20,376 bases of DNA from IMG/VR virus record IMGVR_UViG_3300037963_004472, positions 1 through 20,376 of that record; one strand, given 5' to 3'. A model generated the notes under the pieces. It made no database searches. It saw nothing but the letters and a program-made list of their open reading frames with translations, and was not told the DNA's origin. A program made the position numbers and the translations under genes. This DNA comes from a virus. This document shows positions 1,810 through 20,376 of this stretch, piece by piece (the first letter of the stretch is position 1; each line of letters begins with the position of its first letter).

Positions 1810-2499
1810 ATGTTAGGACTAGGAAATAGTATATCAGGCATGCCTTACGTGTCTTCTGCTTTTAATATAAACGATCTAAGTCCTCAATTATGGTTAGCGT
1901 TTAATACCGGTCAAGGAGCTATTACTGATGGTATACAATGGGATGATCAGTCTGGTAATAATAGACACGCTTCACAAACTACAGATGCTCAAGAGGGTAG
2001 TGGTTTTAGTGGTGGTGCTTTTGTTACTGATGCAAATAACAACGATAACTTAGACCTAGCTAGCACATTTAATCTAACTGGAGCTTATCACATGTTTGTA
2101 GTATTAAATTTATCAGAACAAAGCAATGAAACATTTGTGTCTAGTGTAAACAATACTAGCTTTATACGATTTGCACAAGGTGGTACAGCTACTAGTTACC
2201 GTATGAAAAACGGTGGTACTACTGTTAATATAACTTTAAGCGGAGGCTTTGGAACAGAAAAGGCTATAGCAGAAGTAACTAGAGATGGTAGTAATGATAT
2301 AAGAGTATTAAGAAACGGTTCTTCAATAGGTGTTGGAACAGGCTCTGGTACTTTTGCTTTTGAGCAAATAGGTACCTCATCTAACGGTTTAACTTCAGCC
2401 GAAGTACATGAAGTAGTTATATTTAACAGTATTTTAAGTAGTGAAAGTGCAGCAGATGTAAGAAACGATATAGCTAGTAGAACTAGTATATCTTTATAA
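1810..2499 (+). CDS. LamG/concanavalin-like virion adhesin
   Basis: A 229-residue protein whose N-terminal half reads LSPQLWLAFN, then IQWDDQSGNNRHASQ. This 'W x D x SGN xx ASQ' pattern is typical of LamG or concanavalin A-like lectin domains. Later strands also fit the family: YHMFVVLNLS, EKAIAEVTRDGSNDIRVLRNG and AEVHEVVIFNSILS. In that fold the last strands often read 'ihEviiyn'. Such domains in phages usually bind glycans on the cell surface or on the virion. The ATG directly follows the previous stop (gap of zero), so expression is coupled to the upstream beta-rich protein, and the two may form one surface appendage. The first 20 residues (MLGLGNSISGMPY) are a short lead, not a clear signal peptide. 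The ligand is unknown. Confidence 0.68.
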   Translation: MLGLGNSISGMPYVSSAFNINDLSPQLWLAFNTGQGAITDGIQWDDQSGNNRHASQTTDAQEGSGFSGGAFVTDANNNDNLDLASTFNLTGAYHMFVVLNLSEQSNETFVSSVNNTSFIRFAQGGTATSYRMKNGGTTVNITLSGGFGTEKAIAEVTRDGSNDIRVLRNGSSIGVGTGSGTFAFEQIGTSSNGLTSAEVHEVVIFNSILSSESAADVRNDIASRTSISL

Positions 2500-3613: not shown

Positions 3614-3836
3614 TGAGTTGATTAAAGTTGCGGAAGAACAAATTATCACTAACACTGAAGATGATGTATCTGCTGATCGACTAAAAAATGCTGCGGCTAC
3701 TAAAAAGCTAGCTATATTTGATGCATTTGAAATACTCAACCGCGTACAAGAAGAAGAAAATATTTTGGAAGGAAAGACACCTGAAGAAAAAGAAGAAAGA
3801 GTATTTAAAGGTTTCGCGGAAGGCAGATCAAAGTAA
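3558..3836 (+). CDS. Conserved helical protein; candidate small terminase subunit
   Basis: A 92-residue, almost wholly helical, charged protein (AGRKAVDELIKVAEEQII, ADRLKNAAATKKLAIFDAF, EILNRVQEEENILEGKTPEE). It starts 56 nt inside the GroES-like gene in another frame. Because both the end of that protein (EYQGNEEAYNPSWAKSG) and this one's AGRKAVDEL start look like patterns I recall from relatives, the overlap is probably genuine. It ends in TAATG shared with the large terminase start. In many tailed phages the small terminase, which recognises genome ends and forms a ring with TerL, is the gene directly upstream of terL, and it is small and helical. I see no helix-turn-helix motif, so this is a positional guess. 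Confidence 0.55.
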   Translation: MSIKETKKRIILAGRKAVDELIKVAEEQIITNTEDDVSADRLKNAAATKKLAIFDAFEILNRVQEEENILEGKTPEEKEERVFKGFAEGRSK

Positions 3837-6046
3837 TGTACGAACAAAGTTTATATAAAATAGTTGAACCAGTTAAGAAGACTACAATAAGTCGACTTAA
3901 CAAAAAACGTAAATGGGAATATGGATACAATAAAGAACATGATATTGTGGTTATCTCAAAAACTGGAAAAATTGGACAGATACTGGAGATACAAGGTTTG
4001 CGAATTGGGTTGCCACCTAAACCGCAAGCAGTGCACGTGCACAACAACAAGTGGCAAAAAATAGAATACCCTAAAGAGTTAAATAAACTTAAAAATATCT
4101 TTGACTGGAGAGCTTATCCAGAAGAAAGCAAAGATCAGTGGTATGATTTTATAGACGAAGAGTTTAAACGTAGAGATGAAGGCTTTTGGTTTATGAACAA
4201 TGACGAACCTACTTACATAACAGGTAGTCATTATATGTATTTGCAATGGAGTAAAATTGATGTTGGCGCTCCAGATTTTAGAGAAGCCAACAGATTGTTC
4301 TTTATATTTTGGGAGGCGTGTAAAGCTGATAAACGTTGCTATGGTATGTGTTATTTAAAAAACAGGCGTAGTGGTTTTTCGTTTATGAGTTCTGCTGAAA
4401 CAGTTAACTTAGCTACTATATCAAGTGATTCTAGATATGGAATACTATCTAAGAGTGGTGCTGATGCTAAAAAAATGTTTACCGATAAAGTTGTTCCAAT
4501 ATCTATCAATTATCCGTTTTTCTTTAAACCGATACAAGATGGTATGGACAGACCTAAAAGTGAACTTGCTTATAGAGTTCCTGCAAGTAAGTTTACGCGT
4601 AGGAAAATTACTGCGAACGAAAAGCAGGAAGAGCTGGTTGGACTTGACACTACTATTGATTGGAAAAACACAGGTGATAACAGTTATGACGGTGAAAAAC
4701 TCAGTCTGCTAGTTCACGATGAAAGTGGTAAGTGGGAAAGACCTGATAATATTCTAAACAACTGGCGTGTAACAAAAACTTGTTTACGCCTTGGTAGTAG
4801 GATTATAGGTAAGTGTATGATGGGTTCAACGAGCAATGCTCTTGATAAAGGTGGAGATAATTTTAAAAAATTGTATAACGACAGTGATGTCACAAAAAGA
4901 AATAGAAATGGTCAAACACGTTCTGGTTTATATTCTTTGTTTATCCCAATGGAATGGAACTATGAAGGCTTTATTGACGAGTATGGACGACCAGTTTTCA
5001 ACACACCTGGACGAGAGTGTTATGGACCCGACGGTGAACTAATAGATATAGGTGTAATTGATCATTGGAATAATGAAGCTGAGGGATTAAAAAATGATCA
5101 AGATGCTTTAAACGAATTTTACAGACAGTTTCCAAGAACTGAAGAGCACGCGTTTAGAGATGAAACAAAAAATAGTATATTTAATTTAGTTAAAATATAC
5201 GAACAGATAGATTACAATGAAGAACTTGGAAGATCTTTAGGTTTATCAGTTGGAAACTTCCAATGGGTTAACGGAGTAAAAGACACAAATGTTATATTTT
5301 ACCCAGATCCTAATGGTAGGTTTAAAGTTAGCTGGATACCTAAAGTTCAAATGCAAAACAGAGTAATAGATAAAAATGGAATTAAATACCCAGGAAATGA
5401 ACATATTGGTGCGTTTGGTTGTGATAGCTATGATATTAGCGGTACTGTGGACGGTCGTGGATCCAAAGGATCGCTCCATGGATTAACAAAGTTTTCAATG
5501 GAAGACGCTCCGCCAAACCATTTTTTCTTAGAGTATTTATGTAGACCTCAAACCGCTGAAATATTTTTTGAAGATGTATTGATGGCGTTAGTATTTTACG
5601 GTATGCCAATACTTGCAGAAAATAATAAACCAAGATTATTATATTATCTAAGACGTAGAGGTTATAGAGGTTTTAGTATGAATAGACCAGACAAAGTTTG
5701 GAATAAATTATCAGTAGCTGAAAAAGAAGTTGGTGGTATACCAAACTCTAGTGAAGATATAAAGCAAGCTCATGCAGCCGCTATAGAAATGTATATTCAA
5801 AACCATGTTGGCATGATGCCTGATAATACTTTTGGAGATTTATATTTTAATGATCTTCTAAATGATTGGGCTAAATTTGACATAAACAAAAGAACTAAGT
5901 TTGATGCTAGTATTAGCTCTGGCTTAGCAATAATGGCTTGTAATAGACATTTGTATAGACCTAATCCCAAAAAAGAAAAAAGTAAATTAAACGTAAGTAT
6001 TTCAAGATATACAAATACTGGCTCAATGTCAAAAATAATAAAATAA
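3836..6046 (+). CDS. terL: Terminase large subunit (DNA packaging motor)
   Basis: A 736-residue protein that should pump phage DNA into the prohead with ATP and cut the genome. A Walker A-like motif is visible as NRRSGFSFM (about 176-184), in the arginine-first form common in terminases. A Walker B follows as LSLLVHDE, with the acidic pair D295/E296. The coupling motif is near MGSTSN (329-334). The C-terminal part looks like an RNase H-type nuclease: FGCDSYDISG supplies Asp 530 in the first strand, HFFLEYLCRP carries a second acidic residue, and FDASISSGLA (689-698) supplies a late Asp. The sequence and length resemble crAss-like and marine Bacteroidota phage terminases. The start overlaps the previous stop by one base. 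The portal gene begins one base after the stop. Confidence 0.93.
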   Translation: MYEQSLYKIVEPVKKTTISRLNKKRKWEYGYNKEHDIVVISKTGKIGQILEIQGLRIGLPPKPQAVHVHNNKWQKIEYPKELNKLKNIFDWRAYPEESKDQWYDFIDEEFKRRDEGFWFMNNDEPTYITGSHYMYLQWSKIDVGAPDFREANRLFFIFWEACKADKRCYGMCYLKNRRSGFSFMSSAETVNLATISSDSRYGILSKSGADAKKMFTDKVVPISINYPFFFKPIQDGMDRPKSELAYRVPASKFTRRKITANEKQEELVGLDTTIDWKNTGDNSYDGEKLSLLVHDESGKWERPDNILNNWRVTKTCLRLGSRIIGKCMMGSTSNALDKGGDNFKKLYNDSDVTKRNRNGQTRSGLYSLFIPMEWNYEGFIDEYGRPVFNTPGRECYGPDGELIDIGVIDHWNNEAEGLKNDQDALNEFYRQFPRTEEHAFRDETKNSIFNLVKIYEQIDYNEELGRSLGLSVGNFQWVNGVKDTNVIFYPDPNGRFKVSWIPKVQMQNRVIDKNGIKYPGNEHIGAFGCDSYDISGTVDGRGSKGSLHGLTKFSMEDAPPNHFFLEYLCRPQTAEIFFEDVLMALVFYGMPILAENNKPRLLYYLRRRGYRGFSMNRPDKVWNKLSVAEKEVGGIPNSSEDIKQAHAAAIEMYIQNHVGMMPDNTFGDLYFNDLLNDWAKFDINKRTKFDASISSGLAIMACNRHLYRPNPKKEKSKLNVSISRYTNTGSMSKIIK

Positions 6047-6047
6047 T

Positions 6048-8462
6048 ATGTCATACACTAATAAGTATTTTCCAAGTCAGGTAGTTAGTGATATTGAAAA
6101 AATTAGCTACGAATACGGGCTCAAGGTTGCTAAAGCTATAGAGTCAGAGTGGTTTAATGACGAAAGAAATAATAGTAATAGATATAAATCAAACTACAAC
6201 GATTTTCATAGTTTAAGACTTTACGCTAGAGGCGAGCAATCAATACAAAAGTATAAAGATGAGCTTTCTATAAACGGTGATTTAAGCTATTTAAATCTAG
6301 ACTGGAGTCCAGTACCTATAATTCCAAAGTTTGTAGATATAGTTGTTAATGGTATAGCTGAAAGAACTTATGATATAAAAGCATACTCTCAATCTCAAAA
6401 CGGTATAGACAGAAGAACTGAGTACATGGAAGCTATCATGTCTGACATGGAGTTTAAAAATGTTAATGATTTATTTGAGAGAGAACTTGGCGTAAACGTA
6501 AGAGAAAGCGAAGTACAAGAGTTACCTGAAAACGCGGAAGAGCTAGCGTTGCACATGCAGTTAAATTATAAACAAAATGTAGAGCTAGCACAAGAGCAGG
6601 CTTTAAACATTTTATTTGATGGTAATAAATATGAATTAACTAAGAAAAGATTTTATTACGATTTAGCGGTGTTAGGTATTGGCGCTGTAAAAACAAACTT
6701 TACTACATCAGAAGGTTTAACAGTAAACTATGTTGATCCTGCAGATTTAGTTTATTCATACACAGACTCACCATATTTTGACGATATATATTACGTAGGT
6801 GAAGTAAAACAAATCGCTATAAATGAACTGGTAAAACAGTTTCCTCATTTAACTCCTGAAGAGCTAGAAGAAATAAAAAATCAAAAACCAGTTTATAGAA
6901 ATAACGTTTATAGTACAAGTGATAACTATAAGTACGATAACAATAAGCTTCAAGTTTTATACTTTAATTATAAAACTTATATGAACGAAGTTTATAAAGT
7001 AAAAACTACTCTTTCTGGAGGTCAAAGACCAATAGAAAAAGACGACACATTTAATCCTCCACAAGAAAAACAAGAGGGTTTTGAAAAGCTAGAAAGACAG
7101 GTAGAAGTATTATATGAAGGAGCTATTATAGTAGGAACTGACAAACTACTAAAGTGGGAGATGGCTAAAAATATGATGCGTCCAAAAAGTGATTATACTA
7201 AAGTTAAAATGAACTATAGTATTGTAGCTCCAAGGATGTATAATAATAAAATAGATTCTTTAGTTAAACGTATAACAGGTTTTGCTGACATGATACAGTT
7301 GACGCATTTAAAGCTACAACAAGTTATGTCGCGTATGGTGCCAGACGGTGTTTATCTTGATGCTGATGGTTTAGCTGAAATAGATTTAGGTAATGGAACA
7401 AACTACAATCCGCAAGAAGCTTTAAACATGTTCTTCCAAACAGGTTCTGTTATCGGTAGATCATTTACACAAGAAGGAGATTTAAATCCTGGTAAAGTAC
7501 CTATTCAAGAAATTACATCAGGTTCTGGTGGAAACAAAATACAAGCATTAATAGCAAACTATAACTATTACATGCAAATGATTAGAGACTGCACTGGGCT
7601 TAACGAAGCTCGTGATGGTAGTATGCCAGATAAAAATGCTTTAGTCGGTATACAAAAGCTTGCTGCAGCTAACTCAAACACTGCCACAAGACATATATTA
7701 CAAGCTGGTTTGTTTTTAACTGCAGAAGTTGCAGAACAACTATCGCTTAGAGTTTCTGATGTTTTAGAGTATTCTCCTACAAGAGATGCTTTTATTCAAG
7801 CTATAGGTTCTCATAATGTAGCAACGTTAGAAGAAATATCTGAATTACATTTATATGATTTTGGTATATTCTTAGAACTAGCGCCTGATGAAGAAGAAAA
7901 AGCTAAATTAGAAAATAACATACAAATGGCTATTCAGCAAAAAAGTATAGAGCTTGAAGACGCTATTGATATTAGAGGAACTAAAAACATAAAGCTAGCT
8001 AATCAACTTTTAAAAGTTAGAAGAAAAAAGAAAGAGCTAAAAGATAGACAGATACAAATGCAGAACATACAAGCTCAGTCTCAGTCTAATGCCCAAGCAG
8101 CGCAGCAAGCGGCTCAAGTAGAAGTACAGAAACAAAAAGCTTTAACAGAATCTAAAATGATGTTAGAGCAAATGAAGTCTCAGCTTGAAATACAAAAGCT
8201 ACAACAAGATGTTGAAGCCAAAAAACAATTAATGGAATTAGAGTTTCAATTTAACATGCAGTTAAAAGGCGCTGAAGTTGAAGGTCTAAAAGCTAGAGAA
8301 AAAGAAAAAGAAGATCGTAAGGACGAAAGAACAAAGATACAAGCCACGCAACAATCAGAACTAATAGATCAAAGAAAAAGAGGTGGTACACCTAAAAACT
8401 TTGAATCTGCCGGTAATGATATAATAGGTGGATTAAACTTAGGTACGTTTGAACCTAAGTAA
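6048..8462 (+). CDS. Portal protein
   Basis: An 804-residue protein that should form the ring at one capsid vertex through which DNA enters and leaves, and on which TerL docks. Three points support this: its place between terminase and capsid genes, its size, and its architecture. Residues 1-600 are mixed helix and strand, with clip- and stem-like stretches (YDLAVLGIGAVKTNF at 204-218, MRPKSDYTKVKMNYSIV, then MIRDCTGLNEARDGS at 511-525, a pattern often seen near portal stems). Residues 655-775 form a very long Gln/Glu/Lys-rich coiled coil, comparable to the barrel helices of P22-type portals in podoviruses. The tail ends in GGLNLGTFEPK. The leader is A/T-only, with ATG one base after the terL stop, so no separate promoter is needed. 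Confidence 0.9.
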   Translation: MSYTNKYFPSQVVSDIEKISYEYGLKVAKAIESEWFNDERNNSNRYKSNYNDFHSLRLYARGEQSIQKYKDELSINGDLSYLNLDWSPVPIIPKFVDIVVNGIAERTYDIKAYSQSQNGIDRRTEYMEAIMSDMEFKNVNDLFERELGVNVRESEVQELPENAEELALHMQLNYKQNVELAQEQALNILFDGNKYELTKKRFYYDLAVLGIGAVKTNFTTSEGLTVNYVDPADLVYSYTDSPYFDDIYYVGEVKQIAINELVKQFPHLTPEELEEIKNQKPVYRNNVYSTSDNYKYDNNKLQVLYFNYKTYMNEVYKVKTTLSGGQRPIEKDDTFNPPQEKQEGFEKLERQVEVLYEGAIIVGTDKLLKWEMAKNMMRPKSDYTKVKMNYSIVAPRMYNNKIDSLVKRITGFADMIQLTHLKLQQVMSRMVPDGVYLDADGLAEIDLGNGTNYNPQEALNMFFQTGSVIGRSFTQEGDLNPGKVPIQEITSGSGGNKIQALIANYNYYMQMIRDCTGLNEARDGSMPDKNALVGIQKLAAANSNTATRHILQAGLFLTAEVAEQLSLRVSDVLEYSPTRDAFIQAIGSHNVATLEEISELHLYDFGIFLELAPDEEEKAKLENNIQMAIQQKSIELEDAIDIRGTKNIKLANQLLKVRRKKKELKDRQIQMQNIQAQSQSNAQAAQQAAQVEVQKQKALTESKMMLEQMKSQLEIQKLQQDVEAKKQLMELEFQFNMQLKGAEVEGLKAREKEKEDRKDERTKIQATQQSELIDQRKRGGTPKNFESAGNDIIGGLNLGTFEPK

Positions 8463-9682: not shown

Positions 9683-11257
9683 ATGGCAATTACAGGTGGA
9701 AGTGTTCTAAATAGCGTACCGGCAACAGGTCAACAGGCTTTGTCGACAAACTATTTAGACCTAGCTACAACCGCAAATCAAGGTTGGGCACAACAATATG
9801 TACCAGATCTAATGGAGAAAGAAGCTGAAGTATTTGGTCCTCGTACCATTTCAGGTTTCTTATCACAAGTTGGAGCTGAAGAGGCTATGACAGCTGATCA
9901 AGTTGTATGGTCTGAACAAGGTCGTTTACACCTTTCTTATAAAGGAAAAGTAAGCAATGCTACTGGTGGTAGTGTAGTATCAGGTGGTATTATTGAAATC
10001 GAAACAGACATTGATGGCAATGACATCGGTACTGATCACGGTATTAGAGTTAACGATACAGTTATCATTGCTTCAGCTGGTGGAGTTTGTAAAGCTCTAG
10101 TTACTGAAGCTATTAGAGGTACTACTGGTGGTACTCATGATTTAATTGAAGTTGCTCCTTACGGTGTTCAAGATTTAAGTAACGCTGGTATTACTGAAAC
10201 AACAGCTCAAGCTTTAACTATTTTAGTTTACGGTTCTGAGTTCCAAAAAGGAAGAAGTTATAATACTTCTGCTGATGTTGGTAATAACGGTACAGCTACT
10301 AATCAAAGAACTGCTAACGAGCCTTCTTTCAAGTCTTTTATGAATAAGCCAATTATCATGAAAGATTACTACGAAGTATCAGGATCTGATGCGTCTCGTA
10401 TTGGTTGGATTGAAGTTTCTACTGAAGCTGGACAATCTGGATACTTATGGTATTTAAAAGCTGAGTCTGATACTAGAGCTCGATTCACTGACTATTTAGA
10501 AATGGCAATGCTAGAAGCTAGAATGGGTGGTGCTGCTGTTACTGCTGCAACGCCTGACAATGGTCATCCAATCGTTCCTGCTGCTGATTTAACTGACGAT
10601 GCTTTTGATTTAGCTGCTGGAACAGCTACTGGTACTCAAGGTCTTTTTGACGCTATTGAAACTCGTGGTAATGTAAGTTCTGGTATTCTTGGATCATCAA
10701 CTCCTCCAGTTAACTTAGCTGAGTTTGACGCTATTTTAGCAGAGTTTGATAAGCAAGGTGCTATTGAAGAAAACATGTTATTCTGTAACAGAGATACTTC
10801 TTTAGCTATCGATGATATGCTTGCTGGTATGAACTCTTATGGAGCTAACGGTACTTCTTATGGAGTATTTGATAACTCTGAAGATATGGCATTGAACTTA
10901 GGTTTCTCTGGTTTCCGTAGAGGATCTTATGACTTTTATAAGTCTGACTTCCGTTACTTAAATGATCTAGCTACTCGTGGTGGTATTAATGCTGCTGCAG
11001 GATCTAACGCTATTCGTGGTGTATTTATCCCTGCTGGATCTTCTTCTGTATATGATCAAACAGTTGGTCAAAGCATCAGACGTCCGTTCCTACACGTACG
11101 TTACCGTGCTTCACAAACTGACGATCGTAGAATGAAGACTTGGGTTACTGGGTCTGTTGGAGCTGCAACATCTGCTTTAGATGCAATGCAATTACACTTC
11201 TTATCAGAAAGATGTTTGATCACTCAAGGTGCAAACAACTTTATGTTATTGAAGTAA
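9683..11257 (+). CDS. Major capsid protein (HK97-fold, crAss-like type)
   Basis: A 524-residue protein. Its N-terminal pattern NQGWAQQYVPDLMEKEAEVF (32-51), followed by GPRTISGFLSQVGAEEAMT and the strand VVWSEQGRLHLSY (74-86), matches major capsid proteins I recall from crAss-like and marine Bacteroidota phages. The C-terminus (RRPFLHVRYRASQTDDRRMK, then LHFLSERCLITQGANNFMLL) also fits. It forms the icosahedral shell and should be the most abundant product here. Its codon use agrees: CGT, GGT, GCT, TTC and AAC are commoner than in neighbours, which favour AGA and more A/T-rich choices. No delta domain or cleavage site is evident, so maturation may not need protease trimming. A strong terminator follows 8 nt after the stop. 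Confidence 0.9.
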   Translation: MAITGGSVLNSVPATGQQALSTNYLDLATTANQGWAQQYVPDLMEKEAEVFGPRTISGFLSQVGAEEAMTADQVVWSEQGRLHLSYKGKVSNATGGSVVSGGIIEIETDIDGNDIGTDHGIRVNDTVIIASAGGVCKALVTEAIRGTTGGTHDLIEVAPYGVQDLSNAGITETTAQALTILVYGSEFQKGRSYNTSADVGNNGTATNQRTANEPSFKSFMNKPIIMKDYYEVSGSDASRIGWIEVSTEAGQSGYLWYLKAESDTRARFTDYLEMAMLEARMGGAAVTAATPDNGHPIVPAADLTDDAFDLAAGTATGTQGLFDAIETRGNVSSGILGSSTPPVNLAEFDAILAEFDKQGAIEENMLFCNRDTSLAIDDMLAGMNSYGANGTSYGVFDNSEDMALNLGFSGFRRGSYDFYKSDFRYLNDLATRGGINAAAGSNAIRGVFIPAGSSSVYDQTVGQSIRRPFLHVRYRASQTDDRRMKTWVTGSVGAATSALDAMQLHFLSERCLITQGANNFMLLK

Positions 11258-12227: not shown

Positions 12228-12986
12228 ATGGCAGTAAGTGTAAATAAAGTATATCAAACAGTATTAAGACTTTGCAATAAAGAAAAAAGAGGTTTTTTAA
12301 CGCCTAAAGAATTTAACTTATTTGCCGAAACAGCTCAGATGGATATATTTGAGCAGTATTTTTTTGATCTAGGTCAATTTAGAAGATTACCTGGTAACGA
12401 AACTTTACACGCAGATCCTAGAGATGTAATAGAAGATAAAATTGCTATGTTTAAGCAGTGGTCAGATTCTCCAAACGCAACTCTTGTAGACAGCTTTGGA
12501 AACGTAAACTTAACAAATAGTTTAGGTTCTACTTTTTACAGGCTTACTGGTGTAAGAGTTAGGTATAACCCTAGTACAAACCCTGATTTTATACTAGCAG
12601 AAGAAATAGATGGCGACACAGATTATTGGATTTATGGTAATTCTAAAAAAGCTTCTTTTAATAAAAATAGACCTATATTTATAAAGTATTACCAAGGTCA
12701 GCCACGTATAAAAATAAGACCTTTTCCTGACATGAATAATGATCTTATTAGACTTAACTGGTTAAGAAAACCTAGTAAGCCTAAGTGGACTTATGTTGTT
12801 CATCAAGATAAACCTTACTACAACCCAGCTGCCGCTGATCATAATGATTTTGAACTTCATTATTCTGAAGAATCAAATTTAGTTAACAAAATATTAATGA
12901 TGGCAGGTGTTACAATAGATAACCAAGCGGTAGCACAATCAGCTAATGCTCAAGACAACAAAAGTATTCAACAAGAAAAAATATAA
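12228..12986 (+). CDS. Head-tail ring/adaptor protein 1
   Basis: A 252-residue protein. Its N-terminus is a helical bundle (VNKVYQTVLRLCNKEKRGFL, then TPKEFNLFAETAQMDIFEQY) that I recall from ring or adaptor proteins of crAss-like and related phages, where dodecameric rings below the portal seal the head and carry the tail. The middle is beta-rich (YRLTGVRVRYN, IFIKYYQGQPRIKIRPFPDM), and the last 50 residues are helical (HYSEESNLVNKILMMAGVTI) with a polar tail. Its place, two genes after capsid and just before a second ring protein, supports the role. The leader ends AAAAAATATAACA before ATG and follows the intergenic hairpin. The stop is 3 nt from the next start. Confidence 0.75.
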   Translation: MAVSVNKVYQTVLRLCNKEKRGFLTPKEFNLFAETAQMDIFEQYFFDLGQFRRLPGNETLHADPRDVIEDKIAMFKQWSDSPNATLVDSFGNVNLTNSLGSTFYRLTGVRVRYNPSTNPDFILAEEIDGDTDYWIYGNSKKASFNKNRPIFIKYYQGQPRIKIRPFPDMNNDLIRLNWLRKPSKPKWTYVVHQDKPYYNPAAADHNDFELHYSEESNLVNKILMMAGVTIDNQAVAQSANAQDNKSIQQEKI

Positions 12987-12989
12987 TAA

Positions 12990-14684
12990 ATGGCTTTTGA
13001 AAATATAGGACATTTTGAAGGAACGCAATATGATTACTACTACGGTAATAATCACGGTAATTATCAATTTATACCTTTAGAAGAAATAATCGCTAATTTT
13101 CAAGTTATGTTTATTGGTGAAGATAAAATTATATCTAAATATAAAAGAGCAGATGTAGCTTACTATGCTCAAAGAGCTTTATCAGAACTTTCTTTTGATA
13201 CTTTTAAATCTGTTAAATCACAACAAATAGAGATACCTCCTTCTCTACAAATGATACTACCTCATGATTATGTTAACTATACTAGATTAACTTGGGTAGA
13301 TAGTTCTGGTATAGAGCATCCTCTTTATAGAACTAACGGCACTTCAAATCCTTTTCAAATAAGACAGCATGCAGATGGAACGTATGATTTTCCAGAGTCT
13401 TTTGAGTTAGTGCTAAACAACGACTTTTCATCTTCTACAGCAGACAGTTCGTACTTAAGTAGTGGTTTAAATAATGGTAAATTAAAACCTGATGATTGGA
13501 TAACATCTAACTCTACTGTTTTTGGAGCAACAGGTGCTGGTAACTCAGGTGGATCAGACGTAACTGTTGACGCTGGCGTATTATCATTTAATCACTCTTC
13601 TCACGATAACGACATTTATCAAACAGGTCAAATATCACCTCATGGTAAAGCAATGGCTTGTTGGCAGCTAATCGATGTTTCAGATTTAGAATTTATAACT
13701 TTGTCTGCTAACGGTGTTTCAAAAGCTGCAGACGGAATTAACTCTGCAAACATACAATTTCCAATAACTATAACTGGTGGTGCTACACCTGCATATCCAG
13801 CGGCCCAAGGTAACGCTCCAGCTACAGCGGCAGGAACTTACACTAGTCCAGCAACAACTCTTAGATTTGGAATTAGCACTTCACCTGGAGATTTAAATAC
13901 TTTTCCAGATGTTTTTGATCCAGCTGTATTTGCTGGTCCATATTCTCAAAATCAACATACAGATCTTTTTGATATTCCTCATCTTGGATCACCTGCATAC
14001 GTAGAGTGGACTGCTGGTCAAACTGGTGTTAAAACTTTAGAAATGATAAACGTTTCTCAATATGATCAAGTATACGTTTTAATTACTTCTTATGTTCCTT
14101 GGGAAGCTCATGCTACAGATGCTTGGCCAGAAACTTTATTAATGAATAATACTATTGATGATGTTACTGTAAAAAATGCTTTACCTGTAACAAGTCTTCA
14201 ATCAGCTCAAGGTAATTCTTCTTCTAATAATTCTTCTACTTGGGATGCTTTCAAGTCTTTAAGTCAATTAGAGTCTGCTGACTATGATTATGATGACGCC
14301 GCTTTTCATCCAGCTGCAGGTGAAAGATATGGTTTAGATCCTCAGCATGCTCAAGCTAATGGTTCTTTTTATATAGACGAAAGATTAGGTAAAATACATT
14401 TTTCATCTAATATTTCAGGAAAAAATGTAATATTAGATTATATCAGCGATAGTCTTGGTACTGAATCTGAAATGCAGGTTCACAAGTTAGCAGAAGATGC
14501 CATGTATAAGTTTATGCTTTATGATGTCATGATGTCTTTAAGAGGAGTTGGTAGAGGTCAACTAGCTATGTACAAAAAAGAAAAATTTGCAGCAGTTAGA
14601 AAAGCTAAACTAAGACTTTCAAATATTAAATTAGAAGAAATAACTCAAATACTTAGAGGTAAGTCTAAGTGGATAAAACACTAA
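12990..14684 (+). CDS. Ring/adaptor protein 2 with inserted carbohydrate-binding-like domain
   Basis: A 564-residue protein. Residues 1-137 (with KRADVAYYAQRALSELSFDT at 52-71 and the strand-loop IEIPPSLQMILPHDYVNY) and 425-564 (YGLDPQHAQANGSFYIDERL, ILDYISDSLGTESEMQVHKL and the end LRLSNIKLEEITQILRGKSK plus WIKH) resemble a ring or connector protein I recall from crAss-like and marine Bacteroidota phages. Between them, residues about 138-398 look like a separate galactose-binding-like jelly roll: it opens FELVLNNDFSSS with WITSNSTVF, continues VLSFNHSSHDNDIYQTGQI, and closes NNTIDDVTVKN, the usual end of such modules. The parent protein should sit at the portal-tail junction, and the insert could decorate its surface. 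The ATG is 3 nt after the previous stop, following a second AAAAAATATAA leader. Confidence 0.72.
   Translation: MAFENIGHFEGTQYDYYYGNNHGNYQFIPLEEIIANFQVMFIGEDKIISKYKRADVAYYAQRALSELSFDTFKSVKSQQIEIPPSLQMILPHDYVNYTRLTWVDSSGIEHPLYRTNGTSNPFQIRQHADGTYDFPESFELVLNNDFSSSTADSSYLSSGLNNGKLKPDDWITSNSTVFGATGAGNSGGSDVTVDAGVLSFNHSSHDNDIYQTGQISPHGKAMACWQLIDVSDLEFITLSANGVSKAADGINSANIQFPITITGGATPAYPAAQGNAPATAAGTYTSPATTLRFGISTSPGDLNTFPDVFDPAVFAGPYSQNQHTDLFDIPHLGSPAYVEWTAGQTGVKTLEMINVSQYDQVYVLITSYVPWEAHATDAWPETLLMNNTIDDVTVKNALPVTSLQSAQGNSSSNNSSTWDAFKSLSQLESADYDYDDAAFHPAAGERYGLDPQHAQANGSFYIDERLGKIHFSSNISGKNVILDYISDSLGTESEMQVHKLAEDAMYKFMLYDVMMSLRGVGRGQLAMYKKEKFAAVRKAKLRLSNIKLEEITQILRGKSKWIKH
13401..14183 (+). other. 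Inserted galactose-binding-like domain (part of ring protein 2)
   Basis: This is residues about 138-398 of the host protein. It is Thr/Ser/Gly/Pro-rich, with a sheet-like order beginning NNDF and ending IDDVTV, unlike the helix-rich flanks. The boundaries are approximate, judged by eye from the change in composition and the return of the ring-protein pattern at about residue 425. Confidence 0.5.
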
Positions 14685-14687
14685 GGT

Positions 14688-17600
14688 ATGCCAGAAATTA
14701 AAAATAATTTTACTCAAGGTCGAATGAATAAAGACTTTGATGAAAAGTTAGTTCCTAAAGGACAATATCTACACGCTTTAAATATGCAGATGGCTAGTAA
14801 GTTTTCTGGCTCTACATTTACAGCTGGAGAAGGAAGTTTGTCTGCTATTTTAGGTAATAAATCTGTTGAGTCAGTAATCTCTAATGGTCATCTATGTGTT
14901 GGAAGTATTGCGGATGAAGCTAAAAATAAACTATATTGGTTTGTAAAACAAAATCCTTTAGTTGCTGGTAATAATTTTGATAAAATAATTGAATACGATC
15001 AAAACACAAACTCTTCTACTATTGTTTTTCAAGATACAGATTTTGACGTATTAAAGTTTCCAAATAAATTAATTACTGGTATAAATATAATAGATGATTT
15101 TTTATTTTGGACAGATGGTAGTGGTGAGCCAAAAAAAATAAGTATATCTAGATCTATAGAAGGGTCAGCTGGTGGTGGTCAAACACAGCTGATTGTAAAT
15201 GGAGTAAGTTTAGGTAAGTGTGAAGAAGAAAACATAACTGTTATAAAGAGAAAACCTAATAAAGCTCCTGATGTAAGAGTAAATACTAGTCTTGAAGAAG
15301 ACAGTTCTACAGGACTTTTAAAAAATGTTGATCCGTTATTTGAAAAAATATTTCCTAGATTTGCTTGTAGATATAAATATGTTGACGGCGAGTATTCTGC
15401 TATAAGTCCTTTTACAGATGTTATTTTTAATTCTAAGTATTTTGATGATTTAAATAATTTAAACGCTTACTCTTTTAAAGATCCTTACAATTTAATAATG
15501 GTTAATTGTATAGAGTCTATAGAGCTTTGTAATTTTGTTCCATACGATATACCAAAAGATGTTGTTCAAGTAGATTTACTTTATATGCAAGAAAACTCTT
15601 CTGTAGTTTATTCTATAGTTAGTGTTAAAAAAACAGACGCAGAGTGGTCTCTTTATGGACATGCTGAAGGTGGTTATTTAAACACTCAAGGTAAACTTAA
15701 TATTTTTGATATAGAATTAGATCCTGTAAGCGGAACTGCAAGTTACATTGTTGGGCATAAAGGTAGATATAGAATTACAGCAGAAAATATTCACGCTGCT
15801 TTACCTGAAAACCAATTGTTAAGAAATTATGACAATGTTCCTAAAAAAGCGCAAGCACAAGAAATAACTGGTAGTAGAATAGTTTATGCTAATTATACGC
15901 AGAATTATGATATTGTAGATGTAAGTAATACTGAATTTAATCCTACAGTTAGTTCTACTTATAGTTTAAGAAATAATAACCCTACAGAAACATTTAGTCA
16001 TGGAGGTCTTCGATCTTTAAAGTCTCAAAGAGATTATCAAGTAGGTGTTGTTTTTGGGGATAAATACGGTAGAGAAACTCCAGTATTTACTTCTTCTCAA
16101 GCTAGTTTATATATACCTTGGACAAGTCCATTTGGCTCAGGATTAAATGCTAGTGAAAGTTTAATCATACAATCAAGAATAACTAGTCAAGCTCCTGTCT
16201 GGGCTGATTATTATAAATTCTTCATAAAGCAAACTTCTGGAGAATATTACAACTTAGTAATGGACAAAGCTTATAGTCCACCTACTCATATAGATTTTGA
16301 AAATGAAGATGATCATATATGGATTTCTTTTCCATCAACAGACAGAAGTAAAATAAGTGTAGATGATTATATAATACTTAAAAAAATATTAGGAACTGCT
16401 TCTGCTAGTCAAGTACCTTTTGAAAATAAATACAAAGTTGTTGATATTAAAAACGAAGTACCAGACTCTATATCTTATCATTATAAAAATTTAGGTACAG
16501 CTATAAATGCTGGTGATATTTTTACTGATGATACAGCTACTTTTAACGGTGGTCTTGAGCTACTATTTCCTAACGCTTCACGACGTATGGATAGAGCAGA
16601 TGGAAACGATTTAATTGTTATTTCTGCAGAAAGATGGACTGGTACAGATGATCCACTCACCGGTGGTCCAACAACAGGTAATTATAATAACGCTCCGTTA
16701 ACTGTTGCTAGTGCTTTTGAAGAAGGTAGTAATCCTACAGAAGAGTTTAAAGATTTATATGTTACTTGGTCTGTTAACGGTCAATCTTCAACTAGATATA
16801 GAATAAACAGTATCAAATTGGTTGAAGATACTAATCATTATCAATTAAAACTTTCTGAAGCTATTAGTCAGACAGATGCTGAGTTATGCCTACCAGCTGG
16901 TACAGCTTATACACCTGGTGCTGCTCACGCTACTTTACATCAAGATCTTATATTTCAAATACAAAGAAAAGAAAGAAGAGATGCAGAAAACTTTTCTGGT
17001 AAGTTTTTTGTTAAGATTCACGGAGATAATATTATAAGACAAAACATATTTGAAGATCAACAAGCTACAGCTGCTTCTTCTTATGTTACTGGATCATTTG
17101 AATGTTTTAGATTCATGGATGTGGTTTCTAGTAATTATTTTCACCAAGGTCAAGTTACAGGTCTTTCTGGACAAATAAACTCTAACAGTAATTCTAGCTC
17201 TGTAACCGGCAATACAACAACAGCTGGTATAGTACCTTCAGATATAGCAAATCATTCAGGTGAGAATATAACTCAAACTTTATCTGATTGGGAAGCTATA
17301 CTAGCTGCTAACAATAATGAAGGATTTTTCTTTCTTGACCAAATGGGTATGGTTGCTAGTAATCCTAGTAGTCAATCTTTTGCTAAAGAATCTGGACAAG
17401 GTTGGGCTGGCGCTTGGAACTCTTCTAGTTATTCAAAGCAAATATGGGCGCCAATAGGTTATGTATCTTGGGATAATCCTAATTCGTTTATGGAACTAGA
17501 CTGGGGTCCAGCTTATGAAGATCAAGGTTTAAACATTTTTGGTGTAGGGTCGCAAAGTGTTTCTGGTCAATACGGTGGTTATACTGGAGAAATAAGGCTT

Positions 17601-20376
17601 ACTGTAGATAACGTTGGAACTGTTAATTACGGTAATTTTCCAACTGGTAGCTTTGGTGTTCCTACGCCTTACGCGAGTAGTAATATAAACTCTTTAGAAG
17701 GAGCTATAACAACCACCTTGGTTCATACTGCAGATCCTCAAGTTAACATTTCAGGTGATGGAGCTAGAAGATGGAAAGATAATAGTCTTTATAATAATAA
17801 TTTAGATACAACATACGGACCTGTTGGTAGTACTGGTAAACATTTTATACATGTTTCATTTTTAGCTCCAGGTGAAGATCTTCATGACGGCGCGGGTTTA
17901 AATGGAACTTACGGAAATAACACTGCTCCAAGTATAATGTATTTTAGAGGAAAGACGGATAGTTTTCCTTCTAGGATGCAAGGAATACATGGAGGCGGAT
18001 GGTTTACAAACGCTGGAACTAATGGACAAATAGATTCTGGAGATGTTTTTGGTGATAGTAATGACGGTATAATATGTTTTGAAGGTAACTGGGCGGATCA
18101 AGGTAGTAGAGGTCCTGTTCCTGGAAATGTTGAAATGATGGGTTGGTGGGAAGAGCCTAGCGTAGCGCCTTCTGGTCAAGGATACGATAGTGCTTTTGCT
18201 AATAGACATATAAATCAATGGGATCCAACTAAAACAACGAGCGCTACAGCTAATGCAAAGGCACAAGTTTTTATAGATAATATAATAAACAATATAGGTG
18301 GTAAGTTTAGATTCCAAGGAGATACTGAAGAATACCAAATACTTAGTATTAGTGAAAAACACATATACAATCATACTCCTTGGAGAAAAAGAATAGTTCC
18401 TACTGACATTCAAACTGGTTGGGCATCTGATAATATTAGCGTAGAAGAAGCAGCTTTAAATTGGGCTAATACTCACGGCGATGCTGATCTTATCACAGGC
18501 GTTAATACTACTTATGCTTTTCTTCCTTTCCCAACTGGTGCTACTGGTACTAAAGGTGGGCAATGGAATCCTTTGTTTGCGAATAATTTTGGTGGCTTAA
18601 CTTCAACTATTGGCTGGGCTTTTCCTTTTGAAAATTATGGTAGAACTCCTTTTATATGGCCTATGGAGTTTGGATACGCTCCAACTAACAACGCGGAGTT
18701 TGATACTCTTTGTGATAAAATAGTAGAGTTTGGTAGAGCAAGTAATAGAAGAACTTGTTATATAATAGAACTAGATAAAGATATAACTAGTACTGGTAAC
18801 CACGGTGCATTTGGAAGTGCTGGCTTTGATATTAACGACTTTATGAATATAGAAGTAGTGTCAGCTAATTCTCAAATTGTTACTGGTGAAATAGTTAAAA
18901 ACCCAGCAATATGGGAAACAGAGCCTAGAGAACAAACAGAACTTAATATATATCACGAAGCTTCTGAAGAAATACCTTTAGAACTAACTATGGAAAACAT
19001 AGAGCGTTTTGCGCCTATTGGCTCTAGGGTAGAGTTTCCTAATATGGTTTATAGTAATATTCAAAACTTTGATGTTCATGTTAATCAAATATTATATTCT
19101 TCTTCTCCTTCACATCTTATTCAAGTAAGAAGTGGTAATTTAATTACAAATTCAAATGGTATTGACGTACATCCAGATGAAGGTTTTAATTGGTTTGATA
19201 ATACAGGCAACCTAATAGATTACGTTGGAGAAGAAATAAGGTTTTATAGAGATGATGGTACTTATACTTCTGCTATTGTAAAAGCAGCGGAAGATTATTT
19301 TCATGGAAGTCCAGCAGACATTCTTTATTGGAGTGGCGCGAGTACTAATTTAAATAATGGTCAAGGATATAGGGTTATATTTCAATTAGAAAAATCAGGT
19401 CACCATAATTTAGATCAATCTTTAGATCATACTAATGCTTTTACTTTTGGTGATGGTGTTGAAACTAGTAGAATTAGAGATGGCTTTAACGAAATGAAAA
19501 TAACTAATGGGCCAAAAGCTTCAGCTACGTTAGAAACTCCTTACGAAGAAGAAGAAAGAAAGCATGGCTTGATATATTCTGGTATATATAATTCTAATTC
19601 TGGTATTAATAATTTAAATCAATTTATTGCTGCAGAAAAAATAACTAAAGATGTAAACCCTACATACGGAAGTATTACAAAGCTTTTTTCTAGAAAAGCT
19701 GATTTAGTTACGCTATGTGAAGATAAAATATTAAAAATATTAGCTAACAAAGATGCGGTATTTAACGCCGATGGTAATCCACAGTTAGTAGCTTCAGAAA
19801 ACGTATTAGGTCAAGCTATACCTTTTGTTGGTGACTATGGTTGTCAAGATGCTAGTTCTTTTGCTTATGATTCGTTTAGATCTTATTTTGTTGATAAACA
19901 AAGAGGAGCTGTGCTTAGACTTTCTATGGACGGACTTACTCCAATATCAGACGCTGGTATGTCTACTTATTTTAAAGGTATTTTAAATCAAGCTAATTTT
20001 ATATTAGGAACATACGATAATAATGAAGAAGAGTATAATGTTACTTGGGAATATGATAGCCCTTACTCTGGTAGTTTTAACTTTTTATTTAATTCTTACC
20101 TTGACTACGGTGTTGATTTATATACGACTTCAGTTCCAGATCCTATACAAGAAGATGGTGGAGTTTATAATGGGTCATACTTTTATTATGACGTTAATGG
20201 AGGATTAGCAGAAAGTGTATCTAACTTTGAATCTCAAGTAATAATAAGAAACTGGCCTTCTATAGATCAAGGATATATAAATCCTGGGCAAGTAGCTCAA
20301 CCAGCGCAACCGCTAACACCAGCTGTGTATACTGAAGGATTGTTTGATGTTTATTCTGCTGATTTTTCCGCTTACA
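14688..20376 (+). CDS. Giant tail-stabilisation-type protein, 3' truncated
   Basis: The frame opens at ATG 14688 (3 nt after the previous stop) and has no stop through base 20376, at least 1896 codons. I read the frame across the window and saw no frameshift. The N-terminus FTQGRMNKDFDEKLVPKGQY (8-27), followed by ALNMQ, is the start I recall for the 'stabilisation' tail protein of crAss-like and marine Bacteroidota phages. Other family-like patterns are YHYKNLG, HTPWRKRIVP (about residue 1221), NPAIWETEPREQTELNIYHE (about 1405) and, near the end, ENVLGQAIPF with LRLSMDGLTPISDAGM (about 1740-1760). It is beta-rich and Asn/Ser/Thr/Gly-rich, as expected for a tail protein that clamps the ring assembly. 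AAGG a few bases before the ATG is the only near Shine-Dalgarno signal. The middle (about 630-1200) has no domain I can name. Confidence 0.82.
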   Translation, partial: MPEIKNNFTQGRMNKDFDEKLVPKGQYLHALNMQMASKFSGSTFTAGEGSLSAILGNKSVESVISNGHLCVGSIADEAKNKLYWFVKQNPLVAGNNFDKIIEYDQNTNSSTIVFQDTDFDVLKFPNKLITGINIIDDFLFWTDGSGEPKKISISRSIEGSAGGGQTQLIVNGVSLGKCEEENITVIKRKPNKAPDVRVNTSLEEDSSTGLLKNVDPLFEKIFPRFACRYKYVDGEYSAISPFTDVIFNSKYFDDLNNLNAYSFKDPYNLIMVNCIESIELCNFVPYDIPKDVVQVDLLYMQENSSVVYSIVSVKKTDAEWSLYGHAEGGYLNTQGKLNIFDIELDPVSGTASYIVGHKGRYRITAENIHAALPENQLLRNYDNVPKKAQAQEITGSRIVYANYTQNYDIVDVSNTEFNPTVSSTYSLRNNNPTETFSHGGLRSLKSQRDYQVGVVFGDKYGRETPVFTSSQASLYIPWTSPFGSGLNASESLIIQSRITSQAPVWADYYKFFIKQTSGEYYNLVMDKAYSPPTHIDFENEDDHIWISFPSTDRSKISVDDYIILKKILGTASASQVPFENKYKVVDIKNEVPDSISYHYKNLGTAINAGDIFTDDTATFNGGLELLFPNASRRMDRADGNDLIVISAERWTGTDDPLTGGPTTGNYNNAPLTVASAFEEGSNPTEEFKDLYVTWSVNGQSSTRYRINSIKLVEDTNHYQLKLSEAISQTDAELCLPAGTAYTPGAAHATLHQDLIFQIQRKERRDAENFSGKFFVKIHGDNIIRQNIFEDQQATAASSYVTGSFECFRFMDVVSSNYFHQGQVTGLSGQINSNSNSSSVTGNTTTAGIVPSDIANHSGENITQTLSDWEAILAANNNEGFFFLDQMGMVASNPSSQSFAKESGQGWAGAWNSSSYSKQIWAPIGYVSWDNPNSFMELDWGPAYEDQGLNIFGVGSQSVSGQYGGYTGEIRLTVDNVGTVNYGNFPTGSFGVPTPYASSNINSLEGAITTTLVHTADPQVNISGDGARRWKDNSLYNNNLDTTYGPVGSTGKHFIHVSFLAPGEDLHDGAGLNGTYGNNTAPSIMYFRGKTDSFPSRMQGIHGGGWFTNAGTNGQIDSGDVFGDSNDGIICFEGNWADQGSRGPVPGNVEMMGWWEEPSVAPSGQGYDSAFANRHINQWDPTKTTSATANAKAQVFIDNIINNIGGKFRFQGDTEEYQILSISEKHIYNHTPWRKRIVPTDIQTGWASDNISVEEAALNWANTHGDADLITGVNTTYAFLPFPTGATGTKGGQWNPLFANNFGGLTSTIGWAFPFENYGRTPFIWPMEFGYAPTNNAEFDTLCDKIVEFGRASNRRTCYIIELDKDITSTGNHGAFGSAGFDINDFMNIEVVSANSQIVTGEIVKNPAIWETEPREQTELNIYHEASEEIPLELTMENIERFAPIGSRVEFPNMVYSNIQNFDVHVNQILYSSSPSHLIQVRSGNLITNSNGIDVHPDEGFNWFDNTGNLIDYVGEEIRFYRDDGTYTSAIVKAAEDYFHGSPADILYWSGASTNLNNGQGYRVIFQLEKSGHHNLDQSLDHTNAFTFGDGVETSRIRDGFNEMKITNGPKASATLETPYEEEERKHGLIYSGIYNSNSGINNLNQFIAAEKITKDVNPTYGSITKLFSRKADLVTLCEDKILKILANKDAVFNADGNPQLVASENVLGQAIPFVGDYGCQDASSFAYDSFRSYFVDKQRGAVLRLSMDGLTPISDAGMSTYFKGILNQANFILGTYDNNEEEYNVTWEYDSPYSGSFNFLFNSYLDYGVDLYTTSVPDPIQEDGGVYNGSYFYYDVNGGLAESVSNFESQVIIRNWPSIDQGYINPGQVAQPAQPLTPAVYTEGLFDVYSADFSAY

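Follow-up and report, generated by a model that had tools for sequence, protein, structure and literature searches.

A predicted beta-sandwich resembling carbohydrate-binding modules (CBMs) interrupts a 564-residue head-tail ring protein in a 20,376-nucleotide stretch of IMG/VR virus record IMGVR_UViG_3300037963_004472 (hereafter, the window), and the same protein lacks this segment, or carries unrelated sequence in its place, in part of its relatives. Both the fold and the modularity of the insert are well supported, and the insert probably serves as a modular accessory glycan adhesin, carried in the beta-domain of a portal-proximal adaptor ring of a marine podophage related to phi38:1 and elemo. 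Coordinates of the protein, its parts and the neighbouring genes are collected in Table 1.

Table 1 Features of the window, with the subdivisions of the fused ring protein listed first.
Feature	Position	Strand	Remarks
Fused ring protein, 564 aa	12990-14684	+	open frame
Ring/adaptor core, N-terminal part, residues 1-134	12990..13391	+	phrog_13977; two helices and first beta-strands
Empty site of the N-terminal insertion, residues 18-23 (YY...GNY)	13041..13058	+	filled in 28 relatives listed
Inserted CBM-like beta-sandwich, residues 135-402	13392..14195	+	model fold matches; absent in part of relatives
Serine/acid-rich linker SSNNSSTWDAFKS..., residues 403-443	14196..14318	+	low pLDDT at 429-433 and 439-450
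Ring/adaptor core, C-terminal part, residues 444-564 and stop	14319..14684	+	remaining beta-strands, three helices
Terminase	3836-6046		head-tail cluster
Portal protein	6048..8462	+	same morphogenesis cluster; phrog_6547 6e-146
MCP-position virion protein	9683-11257		head-tail cluster; phrog_13704
Upstream virion protein	12228..12986	+	phrog_14543 4.6e-33; homologues in related loci
Very large downstream virion protein, at least 1896 aa, open at window end	14688..20376	+	phrog_14478 4e-117

The core resembles adaptor rings of podoviruses

A preliminary description, made from the sequence alone, had assigned the flanks of the protein to a ring/connector family, and both profile and structure comparisons agree with this assignment. 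The phrog_13977 profile (virion structural protein, 273 aa) matched the protein with an E-value of 5.9e-40 in two stretches corresponding to both flanks, leaving the middle unmatched. An AlphaFold2 model of the whole protein was generated with 88 homologues and compared with the PDB and by Foldseek. In the PDB comparison, the core (residues 23..564) aligned to 7qog_B, ring protein 1 (gp43) of phiCrAss001, with a Z-score of 10.7. The N-terminal part of the modeled core comprises helices at residues 30-41 and 53-71 followed by strands at 75-111, and the core as a whole presents a helical bundle interrupted by a beta-sandwich (fibre-dock) domain. For a model of a relative with no internal insert (contig L077; mean pLDDT 73), the top matches were two crAss001 chains, 7qoi_FS (Z 11.1) and 7qog_B (Z 10.9), followed by the adaptors of VP1, KHP30, GP4, N4, SU10 (8.4-8.5) and T7 (7.6); adaptors of several other podophages spanned Z-scores of 7.6-9.8.

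The combination of helical bundle and beta-sandwich is shared with phiCrAss001 gp43 and with the podovirus adaptors T7 gp11, SU10 gp11 and that of N4, and the position of the ring gene directly upstream of a muzzle-like gene is likewise shared with gp43. The crAss001 protein differs in being only 236 aa long and in having no insert, and its sequence similarity to the window protein is below significance (P 0.12 when the core family was aligned by hhalign to gp43 as a single sequence). Known ring paralogues are themselves mostly 15-19% identical to each other. As hhalign comparisons of the core or of the upstream protein with crAss001 ring sequences were too weak for assigning ring numbers, the R1 assignment of the core rests on structure. 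Based on these models, the flanks are probably a portal-proximal adaptor ring of the crAss001 R1 or T7 gp11 kind, which would place the protein at the portal.

Gene order is consistent with this placement, running from terminase, portal and MCP-position protein to the phrog_14543 protein, the ring gene and the virion protein of more than 1896 aa, and is the same in Cellulophaga phage phi38:1 and Flavobacterium phage elemo. The ring gene thus lies in the head-tail cluster directly before the gene in muzzle/nozzle position. The phrog_14543 protein, with a weak collinear hhalign match to crAss001 R4/R5 gp34 (P 0.008), is probably a second ring protein. The downstream protein occupies the position of crAss001 muzzle gp44, its identity as a muzzle being given by position and size only. 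Compared with the 1474-aa PHROG, this protein of at least 1896 aa matched in three stretches, and large insertions are likely there too. The MCP-position protein is longer than the phrog_13704 profile by ~84 residues and may also carry an inserted domain.

The insert is modeled as a separate CBM-like beta-sandwich

The AlphaFold2 model had a mean pLDDT of 78.7, with most strands of the insert above 90. Rather than one continuous fold, it contains a separate domain at approximately residues 135-399 (nucleotides 13392-14186), in agreement with the galactose-binding-like jelly roll that had been proposed for nucleotides 13401-14183 and within a few residues of that span; the NNDF motif given as its start corresponds to residues 143-146 and the IDDVTV motif given as its end to residues 389-394. 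Compared with the PDB, this domain best matched carbohydrate-binding folds, including EndoMA1 (8ic1, Z 12.5), CBM16 (2zex, Z 12.1), CBM61 (2xom, Z 11.6), a porphyran-binding protein (8xmz, Z 10.8), the K2-2 tailspike (8iqe, Z 10.6), an alginate-binding protein (8zqf, Z 10.5) and CBM4 (2y64, Z 10.5; 1gui, Z 10.1), with alignments to the CBM4 and CBM16 chains (Z 10.1-12.1) extending over 127-147 residues. Foldseek on its own returned CBM4 1gui as the top match to the insert (E 1e-5). The model therefore predicts the beta-sandwich fold of CBM4 and CBM16 across the whole insert. This fold also has roles other than glycan binding, and because Cry proteins and others that share it appear in the same PDB match list, the fold alone is no proof of function.

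Unlike CBM16 and CBM4 proper, the insert has no family-level sequence match and is not attached to an enzyme; it is fused to a ring protein in which no catalytic domain was found with PHROG or Pfam. Pfam returned nothing for the whole 564-aa protein and no CBM model for 21 inserts up to an E-value of 1, the insert profile had no match among PDB sequences, and phmmer against the PDB gave just a weak expansin match (E 1.1, 40 residues). We take the N-terminal NxxF...W and C-terminal IDDV-type motifs to resemble those of CBM16 and CBM4. Among 57 aligned inserts, the window's included, F146, W170, Q226, G294, V355, D390 and other positions are shared; the conserved aromatics (F146, W170, W225, W340 and Y362) could be purely structural. 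In no stretch of 7-10 columns did conservation among the inserts suffice for scanning a collection with the insert alone. The insert profile found no second copy in the five insert-bearing records searched, and none of 50,697 phage records matched the insert by tblastn, so that this collection contains no phage known to have it. A BFVD entry (A0A1B1IV13, 455 aa) matched over the whole length (E 1e-29), and the fusion architecture is probably already present, unnamed, in UniProt.

In the model, the insert splits the beta-domain of the core between strands 109-111 and 459-463. The low-complexity linker that follows it includes an SSNNSSTW stretch and extends to residue ~443; relatives with no insert keep it as a loop of ~40 aa with an SxTW motif. 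The adaptor beta-domain is the fibre dock in T7 and SU10 (PMC6702177, PMC9509320), its loops protrude radially in SU10 (PMC9509320), and R1 together with R2 forms the interface for fibre hubs in crAss001 (PMC10172136). By analogy with these structures, outward display of the insert is likely.

The insert is absent or replaced in many relatives

At least 147 homologous frames with both flanks came out of two IMG/VR scans; four of these belong to public phages, and one is a second copy of the window protein with identical sequence. The scans are biased towards relatives of this protein, and the counts given here are not population frequencies. Across the 147 frames listed, the segment between the flanks was short (28-53 aa) in 58 frames and long (172-491 aa) in 89, and no intermediate lengths occurred. 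The segment is thus absent in 58 of these frames and not an integral part of the family. The N-terminal core of the window protein was mostly 45-69% identical to that of its contig relatives, with or without an insert. The nearest isolated phages, Cellulophaga phi38:1 (Pervagoviridae), the Flavobacterium elemo phages and Cellulophaga phi13:2, have insert-less homologues of 269-286 aa, or 269-307 aa when MW202828 is included. Insert-bearing ring proteins are apparently widespread in marine relatives of the Cellulophaga and Flavobacterium podophages.

Most of the long segments listed (85 of 89) are of the window type (J-type), as judged by length and resemblance and not by testing each one. Unrelated sequence occupies the same site in four others (L026, L042, L056 and L070), with VGMxV-type segments in some, and an insert within an insert was found at L025:5980-8214, where one VGMxV-type segment interrupts the jelly roll. 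The J-type insert is strongly clustered when mapped on a tree built from the core only, with the insert left out, requiring 3 changes, compared with 19.6 when labels were shuffled. Insert-less rows were basal on this tree, which is rooted by midpoint only, as expected of insert gain followed by replacements. One locus carries tandem ring/adaptor genes (L102:3808-5343 and L102:5359-6984) that are 56% identical, each with a different insert; their products could mix within one ring or form two rings stacked on each other.

Inserts diverge rapidly and appear to be exchanged

Between random pairs of insert-bearing phages, mean identity was 32.3% for the insert, compared with 68.6% for the ring core, 48.0% for the upstream virion protein, 70.0% for the MCP and 76.7% for the portal. 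Inserts that are only 24-34% identical can sit on cores that are 77-86% identical. Synonymous divergence of core and insert also disagreed in several close pairs: dS was 0.47 (core) and 0.075 (insert) for L137/L131, 0.039 and 0.20 for L125/L134, and 0.80 and saturated for L008/L091. Because of this disagreement, inserts appear to have been swapped between phages, recombination of one part relative to the other being the simplest cause. Where measurable, dN/dS of the insert was between 0.12 and 0.35, indicating a module that is under purifying selection and kept functional; strong positive selection was not found in this range.

A second insertion slot at the N-terminus

A different position is filled in 28 of the 147 frames listed, all of them lacking the internal insert, by 63-213 extra residues between the motifs MxLFxGTQxxYY and GNY (L077:5755-5990, L036, L047, L072 and ~24 more). 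A start-codon artefact was rejected as the origin of these extra residues: the conserved family start MxLFxGTQxxYY lies before the extra domain, which identifies it as an insertion. The segment of L077, the single one modeled, matched the HRP29 tail chain (Z 9.0), CBA120 TSP4 (Z 8.8) and T7 gp17 (7boz_c, Z 7.9), as well as a tail-fibre PHROG (7.5e-7), and is predicted to have the fold of a tail-fibre N-terminal domain. None of the 147 frames listed had both insertions. Since rows with the N-terminal insertion likewise cluster on the core tree, this mutual exclusion may largely mirror clade structure.

Possible roles of the insert

The preliminary description had offered three roles for the domain, namely reinforcing the collar, binding host polysaccharide or anchoring collar whiskers. 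Its structural part, a separate CBM-like fold in a portal-tail-type ring protein, holds and is complemented by the absence of the domain from many relatives. Among the three roles, we favour binding of host polysaccharide because the inserts diverge fast, swap backbones and are replaced by unrelated domains, and for the same reasons collar reinforcement fits poorly. The insert might anchor collar whiskers, given that the adaptor beta-domain of solved podoviruses is the fibre-docking domain.

We infer the following course of events for a glycan adhesin. Every ring subunit would display one CBM-like beta-sandwich. The rings of crAss001 and T7 are dodecamers, and if the present ring were dodecameric too, up to twelve copies of the module would form a belt around the neck. 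Such a belt could bind host capsule, exopolysaccharide (EPS) or algal polysaccharide weakly but with avidity, and would keep the particle close to the cell until its tail tip engages. The neck of the virus may thus contact the sugar coat of its host as well.

Other explanations of the insert were weighed against a glycan adhesin. The insert could be a protein-protein docking module that holds a hub protein, or the base of a tail fibre or whisker, on the adaptor ring and varies with the partner fibre. Its location fits, as fibres of T7 and SU10 dock on the very beta-domain that it interrupts, R1 and R2 of crAss001 form the interface for fibre hubs, and the 28 relatives listed with an alternative insertion include one, L077, whose extra domain is predicted to have a tail-fibre N-terminal fold with a match to T7 gp17. 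Co-evolution with a fibre would also give fast divergence and exchange. We nevertheless consider docking unlikely, as the insert-less relatives lack any such module, the top fold matches are glycan modules, and each of the four unrelated inserts at the one site would require a new partner. Still less probable is a purely structural role without a ligand, in which the insert, as a brace or decoration, would make the collar thicker or shield the junction of head and tail. Such a role would agree with the purifying selection that keeps the insert, and inserted beta-domains do stabilise other capsid parts, such as the I-domain of the crAss001 MCP, yet a brace would be expected to evolve like the core, and the insert is both far more divergent than the core and dispensable in the 58 short frames, besides being apparently exchanged between backbones.

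A fusion created by assembly or gene calling deserves consideration as the window belongs to a 27808-base metagenomic virus record that is itself a fragment, and is so improbable as to be negligible. The identical protein is also encoded by another UViG, on a contig of 60 kb, and in at least ~80 more contigs an open frame has a J-type insert at this site; this second copy and the many independent relatives rule out chance or an assembly artefact.

Precedents for a glycan adhesin at a ring or neck come from phages of other types. The closest in architecture is the evolved Dit of lactococcal siphophages, in which carbohydrate-binding insertions restore infection of EPS-bearing lactococci (PMC10688798). 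Both cases involve a carbohydrate-binding-type beta domain in a ring-forming virion protein that is variably present among close relatives; adsorption to EPS-bearing hosts is promoted by the lactococcal domains (PMC10688798), and the module described here is a predicted one. The two also differ in that Dit is located at the distal end of a long siphophage tail and acts on Gram-positive hosts, whereas the window protein is not a Dit: its core matches R1 and adaptors, it is expected beside the portal in a Bacteroidota podophage lineage, and its insert is nearest to CBM16 and CBM4. In roseophage R4C, too, Dit has an insertion domain, and further domains of glycan type are present (PMC10276861). 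Glycan-binding-type domains at the head-tail neck itself are present in the neck passage structures of 936 and P335 lactococcal phages, and one of the 936 phage neck CBMs binds its host (PMC6669499); there, the domains are part of a distinct collar/whisker protein that contains a coiled coil, whereas the module of the window is built into the adaptor ring. None of the literature searched describes a podophage adaptor with a glycan-type insertion, although such a report may exist elsewhere.

Adaptor rings are usually regarded as passive plumbing between portal and tail. Taking both insertion sites together, we tentatively suggest that a large marine clade of Bacteroidota podophages could have, in its portal-adaptor ring, a general display platform with two mutually exclusive slots, the fibre-dock beta-domain for CBM-like or unrelated modules and the N-terminus for tail-fibre-type ones; modules would move between phages by recombination, and host-surface recognition would in part be a property of the neck itself, as opposed to separate fibres or spikes. 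Should the inserts bind glycans, the neck would be a receptor-recognition surface that is exchangeable like a cassette. The polysaccharides recognised by uncultured flavobacterial phages in algal blooms could then be predicted from sequence. With a near-constant scaffold on which the insert may be present, missing or replaced, these phages would also provide a clean system for studying how adhesion modules are gained.

Two further open reading frames were recorded alongside this analysis. A 229-aa ORF in the window (1810-2499), starting LWLAFNTG...WDDQSGNNRHA, had no match in Pfam and PHROG, and we presume from its start that it resembles LamG/concanavalin-type lectins. The 60-kb contig with the identical ring protein encodes a 793-aa protein (L155:3591-5969, minus strand) that has a signal-like sequence at its N-terminus and contains a Por_Secre_tail domain (2e-7). 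As read from its sequence, this phage-borne type IX secretion sorting signal suggests that the host belongs to the Bacteroidota and, perhaps, that the infected cell exports the protein.
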